NCBI RefSeq assembly: GCF_036194065.1
Contig: NZ_CP108096.1
Span: forward strand, 62,001-126,000
Direction: 5' to 3'
From: Streptomyces sp. NBC_00239
Lineage (GTDB): Bacteria; Actinomycetota; Actinomycetes; Streptomycetales; Streptomycetaceae
Length of the DNA: 64,000 nucleotides
The notes under the pieces are model-generated. The model had not been told where the DNA came from. It saw nothing but the letters and a program-made list of their open reading frames with translations, and made no database searches. Shown here piece after piece: positions 8,503 through 18,796 of this stretch (positions are counted from its first letter, which is position 1; every line of letters starts with the position of its first letter). The translations under genes and the position numbers were made by a program.

Positions 8503-8999
8503 TCACGCAGCGGCGGATTCCACAGGGAGGGTGAGGGCGTGCAGCTCCCGCTCGGCTCTCCCCTTGAGCCAGGCGTGCTGTCGCGCGTCGTACTCCGCCT
8601 GATCACGGTAGGTGTCTTCGGCGGTCCACTGGCCGGGGTGTATGCGCCGGTGATACACGACCTCGGGAATCAGCTCTCCAGCAGCACGGCTGGTGACGCC
8701 GAGGACGTAGGCGTAGTCCTCGCCCTTGTGGAGTCCGCCATGCCCGACAGCCTGTGCGAGGCGAGTGTCGGTGAGCAGCATGCAGTGACCCATGGGGGGC
8801 TTGGTGTTTTGCGGGTCGGGCCAGTGCGTCCAGACGTCGCCGGCCGCGTGCCGGCCGGTGGGCGTGGGGCACATCCAAGTCGACAGGGTGTCAGCTGTGG
8901 CGTCCCAGTCGGCCGAGTATCCGGCGATCCAACTCAGCCCCGTCTCCTCGGCGCGCTGGTTGCGGACGGCCAGGGAGTACGGGGGAAGAACATCATCGT
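8503..8999 (-). pseudogene. 3' half of a split glycosyltransferase gene
   Basis: From the element junction at 8999 the reverse frame reads NDDVLPPYSLAV and runs to the stop at 8503. It aligns along its length with the C-terminal half of the intact glycosyltransferase at 9364-10131 (shared pattern WPDP...GEDYAY...VVYH). It has no N-terminal donor-binding half; upstream of the junction the open frame enters transposon DNA and is noise. The missing 5' half is at 18488-18796, same strand, and joining the two at the shared 7-bp core restores one frame across the DDD motif. The open frame up to 9342 is therefore not an intact gene. Confidence 0.8.
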
Positions 9000-9030
9000 T
9001 AGTCGCGGCAAACCCTGTGTCCCACACAGG
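8993..9030. repeat. Left end of the element: core, terminal repeat and sub-terminal palindrome
   Basis: Core TCATCGT (8993-8999) leads inward to TAGTCGCGGCAAACCCTGTGTC. Read inward from the other end, the sequence is CGTAGTTGCTGC...CTGTGTC, so both ends share CGT(T)AGTYGC and CTGTGTC. The perfect inverted repeat CCTGTGT-CCC-ACACAGG (9014-9030) follows and is a likely recombinase binding site. Confidence 0.65.
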
Positions 9031-9363
9031 CCGTGTCGCTTTACGACGGGGCGGTCGCTCGATTCCGCTCGGATGCCAGGTGGACCACGGTGTCGCTTTC
9101 TGGAGGCCAACTTCTCCTGGAATTGTGGCAGACGTCACGCGCGGACGGGTGATGTCCTCGCGTCGGAGAGGGGTGCGCCCGTACGAGACCGCGGCCTGCG
9201 AACGGACAGCGCTCGATCTGGGAGGTCTGCCGGGGCGGCGTATGAGTGAGGGGATGCGGGTCTCCATTCGGTGGGACGGTGGGGATGGGTGCGGGTGTCG
9301 GCGTACGGGCGCGCCGGCCATCGCGGACGGCGCGCCCGTCAAGTCACCCTGGGTGCAGTCCAG

Positions 9364-10131
9364 TTACGCCGACATCTGTTGCGTAATTCCTGCGCGGAGG
9401 GACGTCAGGTGTTTGCCATGGCGCCACGCGAATTGGCGAGCGCGGGATTCCATTGCCGGATATGAAGGCTGGGCGGTCATCTGTTCCGGGTGCTTTCTGT
9501 AGTGGTAGACAACGGTGGGCAGAAGAGCCCCGGAAGCGGTGCCGGTAATGCCGACCAGGTAGGCGTAATCCTCCCCCTGGGGCAGGGCCGCGTATCCGCC
9601 GCTTCCGCGGATAAGGTCGGTGCGGGCGAGGAGGGTGGTAGGACCAATCGGGATGGTTGCCTCGGGATTTGGCCAGTAACTCCACACGTCGCCGGCTTCA
9701 TGGAACCCGGGAGGTGTCGGACAGCGCCACGTCGATACGGCGCCGTCCGCGTGAAGGTCTGCGGACCAGCCGGCGCACCAGCCGAGACCGTGCTCGCGGG
9801 CGTGCCGGAGGCGCACAGACAAGGATCCTTCTGGCAGGAGGTCGTCGTCATCGGCTGTGGTGCACCAATCCGCGGAGACCTCGTTCACGGCGAAGTTCCG
9901 GGCTGCGCCTGCTCCGACGGCTCGGGGTAGAGGGACCGTCTGGACGCGGGGGTCGTCGCGCAGGCGCGTGGGCAGCTGCGAGATCGGCACGCCGTCGAGC
10001 GCGAGAACCCACTGCCATTCCACGTCCTGCTGGTGCAGGCTGGCGTGCAGCTCCAGCAGGTACGGGATGCGGTCCGAGCGCAGCCGGGTCGGGGTTATGA
10101 CGGCGACTTCGGCGTGGTCAGAGACGGTCAC
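9364..10131 (-). CDS. GT-A type glycosyltransferase (element cargo)
   Basis: 255 aa. The GTG at 10131 has AAGGAAG upstream. It starts with a nucleotide-sugar-binding beta strand (VAVITPTRLRSDRIPYLLEL), a loop with RNFAVNE near 79-85, the metal-binding acidic run DDDD at 94-97 and an acceptor/catalytic segment QGEDYAY near 185-191. This is the family GT2 plan, minus any membrane segment. It lies inside the transposon and is clearly homologous to the gene the transposon interrupts, so it may substitute for it. The donor and acceptor are unknown. Confidence 0.75.
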   Translation of the reverse strand: MTVSDHAEVAVITPTRLRSDRIPYLLELHASLHQQDVEWQWVLALDGVPISQLPTRLRDDPRVQTVPLPRAVGAGAARNFAVNEVSADWCTTADDDDLLPEGSLSVRLRHAREHGLGWCAGWSADLHADGAVSTWRCPTPPGFHEAGDVWSYWPNPEATIPIGPTTLLARTDLIRGSGGYAALPQGEDYAYLVGITGTASGALLPTVVYHYRKHPEQMTAQPSYPAMESRARQFAWRHGKHLTSLRAGITQQMSA

Positions 10132-10180
10132 AGCGGCGACTTCCTTGCTAGGTCGGAGATAGCGTTAATAGTCCGGAGGA

Positions 10181-10203
10181 TCCCCGGTTTCGGAAACCGG
10201 GGA
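10181..10203 (-). promoter_or_regulatory. 23-bp palindrome upstream of the cargo glycosyltransferase
   Basis: TCCCCGGTTTC-G-GAAACCGGGGA is a perfect palindrome with 11-base arms, 49 bp before the glycosyltransferase start. It could be an operator or a transcript hairpin that insulates the gene from upstream transcription. CGAAACCGG recurs nearby (10245-10253). Confidence 0.5.
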
Positions 10204-10965
10204 CCCCCTGCTATAGATGCCTGCATCGGTTTCGAGAGTGCCAACGAAACCGGACACAAGGCAGATCTTGCGAGGGCATTCAGATTCGAGCGATCCGGAC
10301 AGTCCCGATCCGGCCCGCCCGGAAGAATTGTTCAACGGGTCGGCTGTGGATATTTTCCAACGCCTTGCAGTGGATTCGCGGGTCAGCCGGGGGCCTGCAG
10401 TGCCAGCTATGCAAGGGTGGAGATCCGTCATACCGGGACGGTAAAACGCGAGGCGCGGGCGGCCGGTGAATGTGCGTCGGCGTCCCGGCGGACGACACCG
10501 CGGTCGCGGCGGACGGCCCGCACTGCGGAACGACGGCACTAGGCCGTCCGCTACGAGGCGACCGTCCTCGTCGATGCTGTCAACGAGTGGCTGTGAACCC
10601 CTGGCCACGTGCTCGACGAGCGGCGCCCGAGGTATCTGAGGTGCGCGGGACCTGACGGTTGTCGTACCGTGGTGAGGTTCCTGCTGCTTGGTGACCTCGG
10701 TGGCAGGGCCCGGACTCTTCGTTTCACGATCTTGAGGTGAGCTTGTACCCCCAGGCCAAGTAGCCGTCCGTCGTTTCCCCGCGTTCTGATGTGTCGAACG
10801 TGTCCGGGGGCGGACGTCGCGCTGGTCTGAGTTGCGTCACCCACCCCCGCCTTTCTCCTTGTTGTTCCCGGGTGCAGCTCTGCCGTCTGCCCTGGGCTCT
10901 GTGCTGTGCTGACCCGTTGCGGCTGACGGCGGGCTCCCCGATTCTTCTGGATCAGGAGCTTTTCC
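10204..10965. other. 760-bp stretch without a confident gene, inside the element
   Basis: It lies between the divergent cargo glycosyltransferase and exporter genes. Base composition is lower in GC near 10200-10360 than in the flanks. Open frames on both strands here lack ribosome sites and have irregular composition. The last 150 bases must hold the exporter promoter and a long leader. Decayed gene fragments may be present but none could be named. Confidence 0.4.
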
Positions 10966-12438
10966 GTGGTTTCCCCCGCGCTCGGCAACGAGCCGCAATC
11001 CTCCTCCGAGCCCTCGGCTCAGCCAGGTACGTCCAAGGTGGCCCTGGCCGCGAAGATCTCCCTGGTGGTGGTCCTGGTCGCCGAGCTCATGAACGTCCTG
11101 GACCACTCGGTCGTCCTCAACGCCATCCCCACCCTCCAAGCCTCGCTCGGCGCCACCCCGGCCCAGGTCCAGTGGCTCACCGCCGGCTACGGCCTCGCCC
11201 TCGCCCTCGGCCTGGTCACCGGCGGCCGACTCGGCGACACCTACGGCAGGCGCAGGGTCTTCCTGATGGGCACCACCGTCTTCACCACGGCTTCCCTGCT
11301 GTGCGGCCTCGCCATGGGGCCCGGGATGCTCATCGGCGCCCGCGTGCTCCAGGGCGCCGGGGCCGCCGTGATGATCCCTCAGGTCCTGGCCACCCTCCAC
11401 GTCACCTTCGACGGCGAACACCGCAGCCGCGCCTTCAGCCTCTACGGAGCCGTCCTGACCGTCGGCTCGGTCCTGGGACCGGTCCTGGGCGGTGTGCTCA
11501 CCGGCGCCGACCTGTTCGGGCTGGGCTGGCGGACGATCTTCCTGATCAACCTCCCCATCGGCCTCGCCGTACTCCTCGGAGGCTGGAAGTTCATCACCGA
11601 GTCGACCGCGCCGAAGGCGGAGCGCCTGGACCTCACGGGTGTGCTGCTCTCCGCGCTCGCCGTGGTCCTGATCGTCTTCCCGCTCACCGAAGGCCACGCC
11701 CACCGGTGGCCGCTGTGGTGCTTCGCCATGCTCGCCGCAGGACTCGTCGTGCTCGGTATCTTCCTGCGTCAGCAGCAGCGCAGGCAGCACGATGCCCCGC
11801 TCGTGGTGCTGGCCCTGTTCCGGGACAAGGCGTTCTCCGGCGGGCTGTCCGCGCAGATGACGTTCGGCCTGCTGTCGGGGATGTTCTTCATCACCTGGAC
11901 ACTGTTCCTCCAGCGTGGCCTGGGCATGAGCCCGCTCCACGCGTCCCTGGCCTTCGTGCTGCTCACCGTCGGCGAGATGGCCGGCGTCCTGATCACCATG
12001 AAGACCGCGGGACGCTACGGGCGCCGCCTGCCCCAGGCCGGAGCACTGATCGCCCTCGTCGCGACGGCGGCCTACGGGCTCCAGATCAGCAGCGGCCAGG
12101 CGGACCTGGCCCTCCTTGAGATGGCGCTGCCGTTGCTGCTGCTCGGCCTCGCCTTCGGCACCATTGGAGGACCGCTCGCCGACCTGTCGCTCAGCAAGGT
12201 CGCGCACGAGAACGCCGGCTCGGCCTCGGGGCTGTTCAACACCTCGATCCACCTGGGCATGGCCCTGGGAACCGCCCTGACCGCCCTGGTGTTCTTCTCC
12301 GCCACCGGCGGCTCGTCCGACGCCGCGGTCAACCGCGACGCCTTCACCCACGTCCTGTGGTGGGTCGGCGCTGCCTTCGCCGCCATGTGGGCACTCATGT
12401 TCCTCCTGCCCGCACGAACGAGCAGCCAGACCGGCTGA
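10966..12438 (+). CDS. DHA2-family MFS drug exporter (14 TM)
   Basis: 490 aa, full length for EmrB/QacA-type proton-driven exporters. The first helix carries LMNVLDHSVVLNAIPTL, the DHA2 pattern. Motif A follows the second helix as GGRLGDTYGRRRVFL, and motif C appears as GSVLGPVLGGVL. About fourteen hydrophobic segments can be counted. The GTG start has AGGAG eight bases upstream. It points away from the other element genes and is the likely selectable cargo (efflux of a drug or natural product; substrate unknown). It shares a bidirectional terminator with the recombinase operon. Confidence 0.85.
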   Translation: MVSPALGNEPQSSSEPSAQPGTSKVALAAKISLVVVLVAELMNVLDHSVVLNAIPTLQASLGATPAQVQWLTAGYGLALALGLVTGGRLGDTYGRRRVFLMGTTVFTTASLLCGLAMGPGMLIGARVLQGAGAAVMIPQVLATLHVTFDGEHRSRAFSLYGAVLTVGSVLGPVLGGVLTGADLFGLGWRTIFLINLPIGLAVLLGGWKFITESTAPKAERLDLTGVLLSALAVVLIVFPLTEGHAHRWPLWCFAMLAAGLVVLGIFLRQQQRRQHDAPLVVLALFRDKAFSGGLSAQMTFGLLSGMFFITWTLFLQRGLGMSPLHASLAFVLLTVGEMAGVLITMKTAGRYGRRLPQAGALIALVATAAYGLQISSGQADLALLEMALPLLLLGLAFGTIGGPLADLSLSKVAHENAGSASGLFNTSIHLGMALGTALTALVFFSATGGSSDAAVNRDAFTHVLWWVGAAFAAMWALMFLLPARTSSQTG

Positions 12439-12445
12439 ACCACGG

Positions 12446-12487
12446 CCCGCTGCGGCGGCACACGGAAGAACGTGCCACCGCAGCGGG
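12446..12487. terminator. Bidirectional terminator between exporter and TnpC-like gene
   Basis: CCCGCTGCGG (12446-12455) pairs with CCGCAGCGGG (12478-12487). After one mismatch the stem continues GGCAC/GTGCC. It begins 8 bases past the exporter stop and lies about 40 bases past the stop of the converging reverse gene, so it can end both transcripts. Confidence 0.85.
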
Positions 12488-12523
12488 TAACCCAGAGCGC
12501 TTCCGACATACGGCCTAGATCGG

Positions 12524-13021
12524 TCAACTGCACGATCCATACGGCGCGGTGCGGTCCGCGGCGGCCGGCAGCGTCCGGACGTTGGCGCCGTCGGTGATCT
12601 GACGGCGGAGGCGTTCGATCTCCTCGTGCTGGGCGGCCAGCCGGGAGATCGCCAGCGTCCTGAATCCGATGAGCTTCTCCAGGCGCTGGTCACGGTCCGC
12701 GACGCGGCCCTTCAGTTCCTCTCGCTCGGCCTTCAGCCGCTTGATCTGTGCGTCCCGCGGGTCGACGATCTTCCCGGCCTGCTGGAGTTCGCGCACCCGG
12801 CGCTCGAACTCTTCGGCCAGGTGCTGGTAGGTGCCGGGTCTGTGGGTGCCGTCGCGGTTCTTCTTCGGGTAGAAGCCGGTGCGGGTCACCCCGGCGACCG
12901 CCGCGAGCGTCTTGAGGTCGGTCTTGCCGCCCGGCGGCAGGTTGCCGCGCAGGATCCGCTCCATCGCGGCCCGGATGGCGGCCTCGTTGCGGGCCTTGTC
13001 CTCCTCGGTGAGCCGAGCCAT
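12524..13021 (-). CDS. TnpC-like transposon accessory protein (DUF6262-like)
   Basis: 165 aa from the ATG at 13021 (AGGA five bases before). Residues 1-60 are a small helical DNA-binding-like domain (RNEAAIRAAMERIL ... LKTLAAVAGVTRTGFYPKK). The rest is a heptad-rich coiled coil (about 75-145, with QIKRLKAEREELKGRV). Tn554 encodes TnpC, a short protein that helps set transposition orientation and frequency; this gene has the same size, position downstream of the recombinases, and HTH-plus-coil plan. Assignment rests on layout and composition. It begins 12 bases after the stop of recombinase C. Confidence 0.7.
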   Translation of the reverse strand: MARLTEEDKARNEAAIRAAMERILRGNLPPGGKTDLKTLAAVAGVTRTGFYPKKNRDGTHRPGTYQHLAEEFERRVRELQQAGKIVDPRDAQIKRLKAEREELKGRVADRDQRLEKLIGFRTLAISRLAAQHEEIERLRRQITDGANVRTLPAAADRTAPYGSCS

Positions 13022-13033
13022 CACATTCCTCTC

Positions 13034-15205
13034 TCACGCCGCCGTAGAAGCTGCGTCGATCTCGGCGACCACGCGCAGGGCACGGTCGCGTTCGGGCAGG
13101 AGCCGCTTCTTCTCGCCCTTGGCCACCCGAGGGCTCTCGACGAAGGTGTCGATCACGGTGACCTGTCCGAGCCACACAGGCCGGTGACTGCGATGGTGGG
13201 TGGCCTGCGGGCAGCGGGCCGAGTCGCACATCCCCACCAGCGGCTTCTTGGCGTTCGGGGTGCCCGCCAGCTTGAGGCACAGCGCCTTGGACGGGTCGCG
13301 GAACCAGCAGAAGTTCGCCGCTCCGACGTGAAGCACCTTCGACAGCTTGCTGAGAAGGTTCTCCAAGTGCCGGTCATCCTCCAGAACCTTCGGATCGTGG
13401 CGGGCGGCCTCGTTGAGCTGTGCATCCACATGCTGGAGTGCCTCGATCAGCCCGCGGGCACCGGGACCGGCGGGCTCGCGGCCCTCCTTGAGGTCGTGGA
13501 ACGCCTCCACGGTGAGCTCCATGTGCTTCTCCTGCTCGGCCTCCTCGACCTCAGTGAGGAACAGCCGCTGGGATCCGCCGGGGCGCGCGGCGTACCCCTC
13601 TGTCGTGGCGACGGAGATGTGCTTCAGCGCAATCTTCGCGGCGAGCAGCCCGCCGGGCCGCGCGGCGATCGACAGAGCGAGCGTCCGGCGCAGCATCCGG
13701 GCGCTGATGGGACCGGCCGGGATGACCGGCAGACCCCAGCGTTCACGGTTCCCCGACTCCTCCAGCCACTTCCTCATGCGGTCGAGGCCGAACGACAGGG
13801 CGACGGTGTTGAACAACGCGGCGCCGGGCGGCGCCCCCAACAGGCGCTCAGCCAGGGCGACGGCGCGGTGCACGTCTTCGACCACGACCCACTCGTCGGG
13901 CACCCCGCCGAGCTTCTGTCCCTTGATCAAACGGCCGGCGAGCCGGTACCGGGTGCCGCCCGACTTCGTCACCGTCTGGCGCCGGCAGCTGACGTTCAGC
14001 TCGACCAACTCGCTGTTGCGCATGCCGCTGAGCGCGGTGGTCACCACCAGACACGCCACAAGGACGTTGGCGACCATCGACTGGACCCCGGTGTCGGACA
14101 GCGGGGCTGTCCACGGCACCAGTGCACCGTCCTCTTCGCGGGCGATCGTGGGTGCTGTGCGCGCCCAGTAGTTCTCGAAACCAACATCCTTGGCGAGCGC
14201 CAGCAGCTCGGGCGCGATCTTCTCGCGCAGGTACGCTCCGGCGATGGTGCTGGTGCAGACCTGGTACGCGAGGCGATACCACGCGAGGTCCTTCAGGGGC
14301 GCGAGGTCATCGGTCCTGATACGCCGGGCCTCGGTCCGGCCATCGGTCAGCGGCAGCGGCACGCGATCGGCGTGCATCTGGGCGATCAGGCGCTTCACGT
14401 CCGGGATGTGGGCCAGCGTGGCACGCGGGAAGTCCACCGTCGTCGCCGCGTCCTCGCGGACCTTCTCGACGAGATCGGCCAGGTGCGGCCCGACGGTGTT
14501 GACCAGGTAGAGGCAGGTGGCCAGCACAGGCTGGAGGAGGTGATCGGGTACCGACGGAGTGCGGTTGGCCCGCAGCCACGTACCGCCGACGACCTTGATC
14601 GTGCTCCGGCCGTCCCACGGGACGAAACCCGCCCGGTAACTGTCCGTGGATAGCAAGTCGCCGTACAACGTGATTAGTTGGACGACGCGCACGCTCTCGG
14701 CCAGGGTCTCGGGCTCCGCCTGGACCGGTGGTGCATCCGGCTTGGGGACGTACCACTGTGCCTCGGCTGCGAACCTGTCGCAGTGCTCCTGAGTCACCTC
14801 CTCCAGGGAGGTGACCCCGTTCGCCGTGAGCCAGTTGAACCACGCGGTGAACTGCCGCAGGAAGCGATTACAGGTACGGGGACTGCGGTTCTTGCGCAGT
14901 GCCAGAGCGCACTCCAGCACGCTGTCGTGCTGCGGGGCGAGCAGCGCGATCAGGATCTCCTTGGCGACCACACGCCAATTCGGGTTCACGATCTTGAAGA
15001 AGTTCCAGGTCAGCTCGTGCCGTTTGATGGACCGCGGCTTGTCGGCCAGGCCCCACAAGTCCCACAGGTCATCCTCGAACCGTGAGCGTACGGAGCCGGG
15101 CAGCAGCGCCAGCCCGGTGGCCTCATGGACGTAGCAGCCGGAGAAAGCGGAGACGGGCCGGCGGGTGATCGTGACCGGGGCGCGCAGAGGGCGGGGGAGC
15201 TTCAT
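13034..15205 (-). CDS. Tyrosine recombinase C of the element
   Basis: 723 aa from the ATG at 15205, which overlaps the upstream stop as ATGA. The catalytic domain is visible: SGMRNSEL (first Arg, about residue 392), MLRRTLA (second Arg, about 503, with Arg in place of the usual first His), LKHISVATTEGY (His about 527, nucleophile Tyr about 536). A long tail of about 180 residues follows with helical repeats and a Cys/His cluster (MCDSARCPQATHH) that may bind zinc. It strand-exchanges DNA via a covalent 3'-phosphotyrosine. The size and the C-terminal Cys cluster resemble Tn554 TnpB. Confidence 0.8.
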   Translation of the reverse strand: MKLPRPLRAPVTITRRPVSAFSGCYVHEATGLALLPGSVRSRFEDDLWDLWGLADKPRSIKRHELTWNFFKIVNPNWRVVAKEILIALLAPQHDSVLECALALRKNRSPRTCNRFLRQFTAWFNWLTANGVTSLEEVTQEHCDRFAAEAQWYVPKPDAPPVQAEPETLAESVRVVQLITLYGDLLSTDSYRAGFVPWDGRSTIKVVGGTWLRANRTPSVPDHLLQPVLATCLYLVNTVGPHLADLVEKVREDAATTVDFPRATLAHIPDVKRLIAQMHADRVPLPLTDGRTEARRIRTDDLAPLKDLAWYRLAYQVCTSTIAGAYLREKIAPELLALAKDVGFENYWARTAPTIAREEDGALVPWTAPLSDTGVQSMVANVLVACLVVTTALSGMRNSELVELNVSCRRQTVTKSGGTRYRLAGRLIKGQKLGGVPDEWVVVEDVHRAVALAERLLGAPPGAALFNTVALSFGLDRMRKWLEESGNRERWGLPVIPAGPISARMLRRTLALSIAARPGGLLAAKIALKHISVATTEGYAARPGGSQRLFLTEVEEAEQEKHMELTVEAFHDLKEGREPAGPGARGLIEALQHVDAQLNEAARHDPKVLEDDRHLENLLSKLSKVLHVGAANFCWFRDPSKALCLKLAGTPNAKKPLVGMCDSARCPQATHHRSHRPVWLGQVTVIDTFVESPRVAKGEKKRLLPERDRALRVVAEIDAASTAA

Positions 15206-16944
15206 CGGGTGGCCTCCTCGGGCCGCAGGGGGATCTCGCTGTCGTCGCCGGCCACATCCAGTTCGCCCTTCGCCTTCGCCTCCGAGGAGAACTTCGGCAG
15301 GATGTCGTGGGAGAGCCGGTGCGCGTACGGGCCGAACACCCGCAGGTAGTGGTCGGTCGTCATCTGCTGGAACTGGCGGCCGAAGAAGGCGTCGAGCCGC
15401 AGCAGGTTCGACGCATGCCGCGGCAAGAACACCGCCAGCGGGCACAGCAGGCACACCCACGGGCGGGCCGGGCACGGCTTCCCGGCCGGACCATGGACAC
15501 CGGCCAGCTGGTCGGTGCAGGCCGCGGTGAACACATCGCGCTCGCCGCCGACGAGTTCGGCGATGGCGGCCGTATCCAGCCCCAAGCGCCGCACCTCGTC
15601 GGGGAAGTCAGCCGCGAACTGCGCGGCCCTCTCGCTGGTCAGAACGACGGGCGGAAGTGCCTTGCGCAGGATCTCGGCCTGCCCGTCGTTGATGATCGAA
15701 TCGATTTCGTCGAGCTGGTCGGGGTCCGTGGGAGTGGCGTAGTGATCCCCCTCGGTGCGCGCACTGTGGTTCGGATCGATCAACGCGCGCCCGGTCCAGC
15801 CACGCCGGGCCAGCCGCTCGTCGTAGGTGTGCCGGATGCGTCCGCCATGGATGGAGAACTTTCGGCCCTGGTCATCGACGAGCCCGTTCAGTTCCACGAA
15901 CTTGCGCCGATGCGCCCCTTTCACGTGATCGCGGGCGGCGTCACCACTGTCGGTGGCGCCGATCCACAGCTCCTCCTGGAGGTCGTCGACGGCAAAGCGC
16001 CGCAGCGTGGAGGAATGATCCAGCCACTGCTCCAGCAGGCGCACCGCGGGACCCGTCAGAACCGAACTCTCGCGGGCCGTACGGCCTTTCACGTAGGACA
16101 GCAGAATCGTCGCGTCGCCCGCCCACTCCACATCGCCGACGCCTAGGTCGGCGATGCCGTCGGGCACGACGCCGCAGTACACGCCGAGCAACGCCTTGTA
16201 GGCGGCCATGATCGGGCGGTTCGGGAAGAGGTCGTCCCGCACCTGCTGCGCGGCTGCGCAGCCAGTGATGGAGAACGTCTTGCGCATTCCGCGCTTTTCA
16301 CCGGTGCGGGCCCGAAAGTAGTCGAGGTATGCGTTGTACGTCAGCGGGCCGCGCCGGAGCATGAGCCACGCGATGTCCTCCTCCGCGTTCTCCCGGTCAG
16401 TGAGAAGCGGATCTGAACCCCATTTGTCGCTCTGGACTGCCAGTTTGTAGCGGGCATAGCTCTCGTCCACCGCGCGCCGGCACGTCGTCTCCAACCGCTC
16501 CCACTCGTCGTCGGTGTACGCCTTGTACGTGCTTAGCACTGGCCGGGCCTGGACAGGTTCGCCGTCGAGGTACGCGCGGACATCCGGGCGCAAGCACCCG
16601 GTGGTCAAGTCGAGGTCCTTGAGGAGTTGACGGGTGTTTCGCTCCCGGGTGGGGTTGCTGGCCATCCAGAACCGCATCAGCACGCCGCGGGTCAGCTCGG
16701 AGGCGGGCCCGTCGAAACCGTTCTTCGACAGCGCGTGGACCATCCTCCGCGCGGCGATCCCGTAACCATTGGCCGTGCCCCGCCTCTTGATGCCTCCATG
16801 GGGATGGGCGTTGGCCGCGAGACCTACCGCCAGGTCACGTGCCAGTTGCGGGTTGGGCAACCCGGCGAGCCTGACGGTCCAGTCGGTGCCGTCGACGAAG
16901 ATGAAGTGGACACCCAGCGGCTCGTCCACGATGGTGGCGGGCAT
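15202..16944 (-). CDS. Tyrosine recombinase B of the element, first Arg lost
   Basis: 580 aa. The catalytic end has GGRIRHTYDERL (about residues 366-377) and NHSARTEGDHY with the nucleophile-type Tyr near 401, and a beta-hairpin Lys in SYVKGR. At the place of the first catalytic Arg (about 258-266) the sequence is VVPDGIADL, with no Arg, so this protein may be weakly active or a structural partner. A Cys-rich tail (CPARPWVCLLCPLAVF) follows, then a RHASNLLRLDAFFGRQFQQM segment. The ATG overlaps the stop of recombinase A by one base, and its own stop overlaps the start of recombinase C. Confidence 0.8.
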   Translation of the reverse strand: MPATIVDEPLGVHFIFVDGTDWTVRLAGLPNPQLARDLAVGLAANAHPHGGIKRRGTANGYGIAARRMVHALSKNGFDGPASELTRGVLMRFWMASNPTRERNTRQLLKDLDLTTGCLRPDVRAYLDGEPVQARPVLSTYKAYTDDEWERLETTCRRAVDESYARYKLAVQSDKWGSDPLLTDRENAEEDIAWLMLRRGPLTYNAYLDYFRARTGEKRGMRKTFSITGCAAAQQVRDDLFPNRPIMAAYKALLGVYCGVVPDGIADLGVGDVEWAGDATILLSYVKGRTARESSVLTGPAVRLLEQWLDHSSTLRRFAVDDLQEELWIGATDSGDAARDHVKGAHRRKFVELNGLVDDQGRKFSIHGGRIRHTYDERLARRGWTGRALIDPNHSARTEGDHYATPTDPDQLDEIDSIINDGQAEILRKALPPVVLTSERAAQFAADFPDEVRRLGLDTAAIAELVGGERDVFTAACTDQLAGVHGPAGKPCPARPWVCLLCPLAVFLPRHASNLLRLDAFFGRQFQQMTTDHYLRVFGPYAHRLSHDILPKFSSEAKAKGELDVAGDDSEIPLRPEEATR

Positions 16945-18398
16945 CAGGCGTTCACCTCGCCGTCGAACTCGGCCTCGGCCTCAGCTGCGGCGGCCCTGTC
17001 GATCCGGGCGAGCGCACTCTGGTAGAGGTCTTTGTAGATCCGGGTGATGTCCAGACGCGCGATATAAAGCTCCGTGGACGTCACGCTCCAGTGACCGAGC
17101 AGGTCACGCAGGATGAGCATCGGCTCGTGCTTGCGCAGGTAGAGCGCGAGCGCCGCATCGGGATCGGTGTCCTCTATCAGGTCGGCAAGCCGTGCGTAGT
17201 AGCCCTTGATCAGCTGTTCCAAGGTCCGCATTGCCATCGAGTGGCGCAGCCGGTGGGGCGCCACGGTCGGGAACCGAGGCTCGTATCTCTGTCGAATTCG
17301 TGCCGAGGTGCGCCGAAAGACGGTCGCCCAGTCGACGAACGGCGCGCCCGTGGACCGCAGGCCCACCAGCGGGGATTGCCCCTCGGGTGTGACCAGGCAC
17401 AGGCGCTCGGCCGGCCGCAGACTCCTCCACGAGCGACGTACCCCATTGAGGCGCGCCCCCTCCCAGTCGGGCTCCTCGACGTACAGCGGCTCACCGAGCT
17501 TCGACGGGGGCCGCCACCTGAAGCCCTCTGCCGAGGCTGCCCTGTCCAGATCGATGTACTGGTGCATCGTGGCCAGCGGCTCGTAGTGGACCCACGTCGT
17601 ACGGTCCTTCTCGCCCTTGGTGATCGCGTACGCGAGCGGGAAGAGCACGGGAAGCGTCGTCGGGCGGGCTGGGAGCGGCGGGATCTCGTAGGTCGTCAGG
17701 TGGGTGAACTCCTTACTCCTCAACCCGCTGGACAGTACGAAGCCGCCCATAGCGGAGTTCCGGGCGCCTTCCCGGGGGCGGCGGTAGCGGAGGTCAGGTT
17801 CACCGAGCGGGTCGAGACCAGCGAGTGCCCGCGCGAAAAGCTCGGCGAAGTCCCACTCCAGATGCTTGATCGTCGTGTGAGGCCGAGGGCGCCCCAGCTT
17901 GGCCATGTTCTTCCTGACCTTCTCCAGCACGCCGTGGGACATCCTGTGCCCCACGCGGTAGGTGAAGGGCACGACGCTGAGCACGCCCTCGTCCTTCGCC
18001 CAGTCGTAGAAGGCGGACAGGATGCTCACGTGCAGGTTCCACGTGGTGTGGTCCCAGCGCACCTTCAGGGGGCCGGCCAGTCGGTACTCGGCGTACATGC
18101 TCAGCGCAGCACGCAACTCCCGGCGGTCATTGAAGGGGTGAACCCCGCGCTCCTGGAGGAACGAGAGCCACGCAGAGAGGCAGCCGGCGCTGTTCTCCCA
18201 TGTCCGCACCGCCGGCGCGCCGTTGATCGGCAGATCCCCGAGGTACCTGTTCGCCACCGTCGTCGGTCGCGGGGACCCGGGGGCGTCCTCCAAGAGCAAA
18301 TCATCATCGATGAGAACCGGCATCTGCTCGCGGATCAGCGGCTGACGCGCCACATCCCAGGTCTCCCACCCCGAAGCCGAAAAGCTGATCTTCTGCAT
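16944..18398 (-). CDS. Tyrosine recombinase A of the element
   Basis: 484 aa from the ATG at 18398; a TTG at 18446 is the alternative start, and neither has a strong ribosome site. All catalytic residues can be seen: SSGLRSKE (Arg about 225), HRLRHSMAM (about 380), LGHWSVTSTELY (His about 433, Tyr about 445). An N-terminal SAM-like core-binding region precedes them (WENSAGCLSAWLSFLQERGV). This is the first gene of the A-B-C-TnpC operon and lies about 100 bp from the element's right end, the position of tnpA in Tn554. Confidence 0.85.
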   Translation of the reverse strand: MQKISFSASGWETWDVARQPLIREQMPVLIDDDLLLEDAPGSPRPTTVANRYLGDLPINGAPAVRTWENSAGCLSAWLSFLQERGVHPFNDRRELRAALSMYAEYRLAGPLKVRWDHTTWNLHVSILSAFYDWAKDEGVLSVVPFTYRVGHRMSHGVLEKVRKNMAKLGRPRPHTTIKHLEWDFAELFARALAGLDPLGEPDLRYRRPREGARNSAMGGFVLSSGLRSKEFTHLTTYEIPPLPARPTTLPVLFPLAYAITKGEKDRTTWVHYEPLATMHQYIDLDRAASAEGFRWRPPSKLGEPLYVEEPDWEGARLNGVRRSWRSLRPAERLCLVTPEGQSPLVGLRSTGAPFVDWATVFRRTSARIRQRYEPRFPTVAPHRLRHSMAMRTLEQLIKGYYARLADLIEDTDPDAALALYLRKHEPMLILRDLLGHWSVTSTELYIARLDITRIYKDLYQSALARIDRAAAAEAEAEFDGEVNA

Positions 18399-18477
18399 GG
18401 CCGCAGACCATAGGTTTCCGACACGGCAGAGTGCAACAGACTGCAACAGGCCCTATCTGACGAGGGCTTGGCAATGC

Positions 18478-18510
18478 GACACAGCTGTTAAGCAGCAACT
18501 ACGTCATCGT
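18478..18510. repeat. Right end of the element: terminal repeat and core
   Basis: Reading inward from 18510 on the reverse strand: ACGATGA core, then CGTAGTTGCTGCTTAACAGC and TGTGTCGC. This matches the left end (CGTTAGTCGCGGC...CTGTGTC) imperfectly. The small palindrome ACAGCTGT lies at 18481-18488. Together with the core repeat this fixes the right boundary to within a few bases. Confidence 0.65.
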
Positions 18511-18796
18511 CTACGAAGACGCAGCGCGGCTCTTCGACAAAGTTGAGCGAGGTGTTACGCGCCGGGGCAGGACCAGGGTCGGGCCTGGCCACCACCTTGA
18601 CCCGGGGGTCCTTGGTGATGGCCCTCGGGACGAGGTCGGGCTGGGCCGTCGCCCCGTTGGGGGCGAGGATCCACCTCCAGAGGATCTCCTCCTGAGCACG
18701 AAGGCTCTCGTACAGCTCCTCAAGGAACGGCAGGCGGGCGGGGTTCAGCGCGGTCGGGGTGATGACGGCGACCTGCGCGTGGGGGCGTCGGGACAC
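18488..18796 (-). pseudogene. 5' half of the split glycosyltransferase gene
   Basis: The GTG at 18796 has GGAAGG six bases upstream. The frame encodes a GT-A start, VAVITPTALNPARLPFLEEL, then PAPARNTSLNF and CVFVDDD, and stops after VVAA at 18488, seven codons past the element core. The sequence after DDD belongs to the transposon. It is the last gene of the operon coming from 23159 and lies 32 bp after the 124-aa gene. Rejoined with 8503-8999 it gives a protein of normal length for this family, with the DDD metal-binding motif exactly at the junction. Confidence 0.85.

Follow-up and report, generated by a model that had tools for sequence, protein, structure and literature searches.

What has parted the two pieces of a family 2 glycosyltransferase (GT2) gene that lie on the minus strand, at 18488-18796 and 8503-8999, of one Streptomyces contig? 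The window (the whole stretch analysed, 64,000 nucleotides of Streptomyces sp. NBC_00239, NZ_CP108096.1, positions 62,001 to 126,000) is part of a 312-kb contig in a genome of 9.3 Mb. The DNA between the pieces is best explained as an integrative element with site-specific insertion, a member of the four-gene GInt/SE group that entered a Streptomyces GT2 gene at its four-aspartate metal-binding codons (rough probability 0.9). The sequence itself shows the ends of the element, their 6-bp register, the interruption, the operon of four genes, insertions of sister elements at these codons and an intact GT2 cargo gene under purifying selection.

The split gene and the ends of the element

8503-8999, minus strand: C-terminal half of the split GT2, separated from its own start.
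8993-8999: left copy of TCATCGT, containing the true core.
8994-8999: far 6-bp core, ACGATG on the minus strand.
9000-18501: integrated element, TAG...CTA, 9,502 bp; inner ends the same in the four sister elements, sister homology stopping within a few bases.
9000-9023, plus strand: far inverted end, TAGTCGCGGCAAACCCTGTGTCCC.
9000-9384: conserved far-end module, whose edge gives the inner glycosyltransferase (GT) its last codons.
18476-18501, minus strand: near inverted end, TAGTTGCTGCTTAACAGCTGTGTCGC.
18488-18796, minus strand: N-terminal half of the split GT2; GTG start, PF00535, DDD end, then VVAA-stop from the element.
18502-18507: near 6-bp core, ATGACG on the minus strand.
18504-18510: right copy of TCATCGT, one codon out of register.

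An earlier note on this DNA had described two GT fragments on one strand, the N-terminal one ending in DDD, and had proposed an uninterrupted relative aligned across the junction as its own refutation test. Both fragments are present, the N-terminal half terminating in ...FVDDD, and the relatives bear the claim out. A GT of genome G090 runs in one frame with 68% identity to the N-half and 73% to the C-half; uninterrupted plasmid GTs match the N-half to residue 112 and the C-half from 113 (S. anulatus NBC_01523), or the N-half to residue 106 and the C-half from 107 (Streptomyces sp. NBC_01304). Both plasmid genes adjoin homologues of the 124-aa protein of the window and a PTS EIIC gene; the NBC_01304 plasmid additionally has an ATP-grasp homologue and a 75%-identical MFS gene near its GT. 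Intact genes, several in a syntenic setting, thus match the two halves contiguously and in register. The split gene and the insertion are certain for practical purposes, and site-specific interruption of the GT2 gene by a recombinase element is supported. The host genome carries GT2 relatives in more than one copy, which could suggest that a rearrangement or assembly artefact had set apart halves of two different GT genes. The chance of this is negligible: one and the same intact relatives match both halves contiguously, which already refutes it, the same arrangement is found in three sisters, and the element ends are conserved.

The core was defined as the six bases outside TAG and CTA. In all four elements (that of the window and three sisters) the near end reads [target]GAY-GAY-GAY-G|TAGTTGCTGCTTAA and the far end ...CTA|ACGAYG. 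Near and far cores are, respectively, ATGACG and ACGATG in the window; ACGATG and ACGATG in S. ureilyticus; ACGACG and ACGACG in S. microflavus; ATGACG and ACGACG in Streptomyces sp. SPB162. The earlier note had instead joined the halves at TCATCGT, present at each junction. The repeats do exist (the motif occurs four times on the plus strand of the window), but the right copy is one codon off: rejoining at TCATCGT gives DDD, and rejoining at the 6-bp core gives DDDD. Nine of the ten insertion-free GT sites of the family that were read, the inner GT counted, have DDDD, the exception being NDDD in a decayed copy with stop codons. Because the TCATCGT joint gives DDD and the relatives have DDDD, the repeat is a by-product of repeated aspartate codons, with a 3-bp shift at one end. 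The boundaries, which had been called unusually well fixed, were thus nearly right, shifted by 3 bp on one side through the 7-bp repeat; the element is 9000-18501. The imperfect inverted repeats claimed for the ends hold: 8 of the first 10 bases match, gapped similarity follows, and the alignment was equalled by 4 of 5000 random 26-bp pairs from the element interior.

Two further GT2 loci were seen. The host has an intact, unoccupied GT2 akin to the targets of the sisters, with the DDDD codons present (L085:8894-9619, genome G000, contig C1); the decayed relative of the split GT has two in-frame stops and NDDD instead of DDDD (L161:9749-10370, genome G337).

Recombinase operon, sister elements and target range

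12524-13021, minus strand: gene D, small coiled-coil-like protein in the GinD/Srap/TnpC position.
13034-15205, minus strand: gene C, large recombinase in which RxxR replaces HxxR.
15202-16944, minus strand: gene B, degenerate recombinase without the first Arg but with invariant R371 and Y402; identified by predicted fold.
16944-18398, minus strand: gene A, ordinary tyrosine recombinase, GinA/IntA-like; open reading frame open to 18446.

Three tyrosine recombinases and a TnpC-like protein had been noted here. The set is present, with proteins A to D of about 484, 580, 723 and 165 aa, but only A has the full catalytic set: R243, K277, H398, R401, H452 and Y461 (numbered from 18446) occur in 32 of 32 aligned sequences. 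In gene C the residues R, K, H and Y are retained and HxxR has Arg in the His position; gene B has no Pfam match, its identity as a recombinase coming from the predicted fold. A, B and C match one to one the four-gene operons on Sinorhizobium, Nocardia and Klebsiella plasmids; D matches those of Sinorhizobium and Nocardia, and not significantly that of Klebsiella. The Sinorhizobium operon (pSinA, L189) adjoins mercury-resistance genes.

Scanning genomes with protein A brought up nine loci. In three the protein is 91-95% identical: S. ureilyticus (L164), S. microflavus JCM 4496 (L165) and Streptomyces sp. SPB162 (L166). The near end lies inside a GT2 gene in all three, the other half being located by whole-genome search; counting the window, the four elements whose protein A is 91-100% identical all interrupt GT2 genes at the same codon positions, and each genome contains both halves. 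DNA homology between window and sisters ends at 18511-18512 on the near side (all three) and at 8991-8996 on the far side; in S. ureilyticus (L164/L156) it spans 18511 to 12518 and 9384 to 8993. The S. microflavus element measures 55,443 bp and that of SPB162 14,750 bp; the elements of 9.5, 14.7 and 55.4 kb have operon and far module in common and differ in cargo.

Relatives of gene A (own genome included) were found in 22 of 150 genomes of the genus at E<=1e-10 and in 33 of 392 genomes at E<=1e-120. The near-end motif was seen in most of the 43 loci scanned (weak or misplaced in L078 and L170; L084, L120 and L121 omitted), and the far-end motif was recognised at several loci. Other relatives of gene A have their near ends inside genes other than GT2, at what we take to be the integrase RHT, serine-recombinase ARVST, radical-SAM GGEPT, methyltransferase FAGPG and HAD DxD motifs. 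A general rule of insertion at well-known motifs is a lead only, because other near ends sit in genes without a name; insertion at conserved-motif codons would explain how such elements find sites in many hosts. Further relatives lie in a CpaE/MinD-like gene, named by eye, at VLSW codons (L079, L080, L116, L118), and the genome of L116 has a second copy of that element in a methyltransferase-like gene (L117). On S. anulatus plasmids (L101, L102) a protein kinase-family gene follows directly after gene D, the target frame presumably resembling the DNA polymerase III alpha subunit. L070 shows a further, incomplete near end of this element type (oriented 1595-1846), some 3 kb upstream; an element may have inserted earlier beside the present one.

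Among 13 elements read at both ends the two cores are identical in 8 and different in 5. Genome G055 has three 6.9-kb copies more than 99% alike (L075, L076, L083; one on a 290-kb contig, two on the large contig), and every copy sits at the ARVST codons of a serine-recombinase gene; the far core is CGCGCG in all three, and the near core is CGAGCG in one. Near cores belonging to the target and far cores contributed by the donor would give this pattern, as reported for SEs and Tn554.

How the element moves is inferred from its known relatives. The recombinases would recognise the near-repetitive GAY-GAY-GAY-GAY DNA of the GT2 family, with strand exchange at positions 6 bp apart; in a circular form TAG would meet CTA across the 6 bp; and the near (A-side) core would be that of the target itself, the far core having come along from the site occupied before, as in SEs and Tn554. 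The target is left broken, its N-half ending in DDDVVAA-stop and its C-half severed from the start, and the GT2 of the element may offset the loss. Several points weigh against this account. The circular form and transposition are predicted rather than observed; the rule that the far core comes from the donor rests on 5 differing pairs and a presumed donor; the S. ureilyticus sister lies on two contigs, its middle not seen; and homology of gene D outside Actinobacteria is weak or not significant (18.6 bits for Sinorhizobium, 3.9 bits for Klebsiella).

The glycosyltransferase carried by the element

9364-10131, minus strand: intact GT2 homologue of the split gene (inner GT), cargo.
10378-10533: segment found directly after gene D in the S. 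ureilyticus (L164) and S. microflavus (L165) sisters.
10966-12438, plus strand: DHA2-type MFS exporter, cargo; missing at the corresponding place in the same two sisters.

Neither cargo gene had been mentioned before. The inner GT has no internal stops; it shares 49.7% of its residues with the C-half and 41.6% with the N-half. In the tree the target of the window groups with G090, G293 and G224, the targets of the sisters fall in another clade, and the inner GT belongs to a third subfamily. Its counterpart in S. microflavus is 94.8% identical over 250 residues; in S. ureilyticus and SPB162 none was found by whole-genome search, so that two of the four elements have it. The gin tree pairs S. 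ureilyticus with S. microflavus and leaves the window outside (support 100), and the inner GT is therefore most simply ancestral to these three elements, with one loss. Between window and S. microflavus its ratio of nonsynonymous to synonymous rates (dN/dS) is 0.143 (bootstrap 0.070-0.266) at a dS of 0.167; for gene A the ratio is 0.138 at a dS of 0.187, and dS across genes A to D is 0.132-0.187. As its dS is like that of A to D and its dN/dS is low, the inner GT has travelled with the operon and is constrained; judged from these rates, it is under purifying selection. It stands 48 kb from the far module in S. microflavus and is fused to it at about 9381 in the window, where its last codons are consequently those of the module.

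At E<=1e-86 the clade of the inner GT was found in the own genome only among 392 genomes, and in the own genome and S. microflavus among 394. Of its 33 closest listed relatives, 3 lie on a contig equal in length to that of one of the 40 gene B relatives compared, and so are putatively on the same contig. Elsewhere, two adjacent decayed GT2 genes lie 5-6 kb downstream of a degenerate gin operon (L119:5960-7123, genome G267), one like the target of the sisters, the other 63-65% identical to the inner GT over two pieces.

Two roles for the inner GT were weighed. It is probably, by a modest preference, ordinary cargo, perhaps picked up from a tandem GT array beside a former site and unrelated to the function of the broken gene: PMC5385486 describes GInt cargo as diverse and mostly from relatives, and the side-by-side genes of G267 offer an array of this kind, one member resembling the inner GT. 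What this leaves to be explained is the coincidence of target and cargo in one family, together with a clade that is rare in genomes and yet putatively shares contigs with gene B relatives in the 3 of 33 cases above. The gene could also be a target-like rescue copy, kept for the activity lost on insertion and lowering the cost of integration to the host. It is a full-length GT2 related to the targets, has evolved under purifying selection after its element parted from that of S. microflavus, occurs in two of the four sisters and is most simply ancestral to three; its equivalent of the core, ACGACG, is the core of the S. microflavus insertion, and tgl in Tn552-II is a precedent for which the authors suggest rescue (PMC12486829). 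Rescue is nevertheless doubtful. The inner GT is only 42-50% identical to the broken gene and of a separate subfamily, it was not found in two sisters that also break a GT, a clear target homologue occurs only in the element of the window among 10 elements with both ends known, and a further intact relative is present in the host, on contig C1.

It is conceivable, if improbable, that this Streptomyces GInt/SE lineage is tuned to one enzyme family, reading GT2 motif codons in at least two subfamilies and carrying a third as a standing replacement. Each integration would then swap a host GT for that of the element, beyond plain destruction. Apart from this reading, the target-family cargo copy joins Tn552-II as another case in which a replacement may be built into the element.

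Comparison with known systems

The element belongs with the four-gene GInt/SE group (ordinary, degenerate and large recombinase, small coiled protein), in which it forms an actinobacterial branch. The earlier note had assigned it to a Tn554/RIT-like family, which gene content contradicts. Tyrosine recombinases in a row with a small gene in the TnpC position, imperfect inverted ends and the 6-7 bp donor core that Tn554-related elements bring with them (PMC10214605 and PMC12486829) would speak for such a transposon; it is very unlikely all the same, as A to C match the four-gene operons one to one. Tn554, with tnpA, tnpB and tnpC only, was rejected on the second recombinase-fold protein, gene B, and RIT on the four genes and their protein sizes, RIT being described in PMC10214605 as three coding regions with archetype recombinases of 315-410 aa.

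GInts (ginABCD islands, PMC5385486) share the four-gene operon at one end, variable cargo, a short 3' module, site-specific insertion and imperfect att repeats, and GinD is there said to resemble TnpC. Here too three recombinases and a small GinD-type protein stand at one element end, in the tripartite layout of gin operon, variable cargo and short 3' end. The degenerate recombinase is third in GInts and second here: instead of GinA and GinB with RHRHY and a GinC lacking part of it, the second gene is degenerate and the third keeps all but the His of HxxR. AT-rich 3' stretches as in GInts were not seen in the far module (GC 0.675, lowest 20-bp stretch 0.45); the 6-bp core, the mid-gene insertion that breaks the target and the actinobacterial host are further differences. 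The comparison was made through a Klebsiella plasmid operon of GInt layout. A circular intermediate and a requirement for all four genes also belong to the description of GInts. GInts are placed in several phyla without Actinobacteria by PMC5385486 and reported absent from Alphaproteobacteria by PMC10214605, the homologous operon on Sinorhizobium pSinA notwithstanding. Four-gene elements of GInt/SE type in Streptomyces were not found described in the literature at the level of titles and abstract beginnings.

SEs (PMC9345347 and PMC10214605) share the imperfect inverted ends and have a similar gene order; their 6-bp spacer, with the near core from the target and the far core from the donor, may have its counterpart here. 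They also show a strand bias and circularise without leaving an empty site. The order IntA, Tfp (no RHRY), large IntB and Srap fits, but B keeps R371 and Y402 and C lacks the canonical HxxR His; the inverted ends of 13-19 bp correspond to the 8 of 10 matching first bases and the gapped similarity seen here. PMC10214605 places SEs in Gammaproteobacteria only; here the host is an actinobacterium, and gene B keeps a conserved Tyr.

Tn554 and actinobacterial Tn554-related elements (PMC3414803) are alike in a long and a shorter recombinase, in the TnpC-type partner of some of them and, for Tn554, in the brought-in core; Tn554 has no counterpart of gene B. RIT elements share three adjacent recombinase-fold genes, and differ from the present element in its fourth gene, much larger proteins and different ends. 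Tn552-II with tgl (PMC12486829) is a Tn554-type element with a target-gene-like gene and the nearest precedent for the inner GT: likened by its description, it is a staphylococcal tnpABC element with another target gene, and like the element of the window it harbours a homologue of the gene that it interrupts, in which an att-like sequence stands at the corresponding position.

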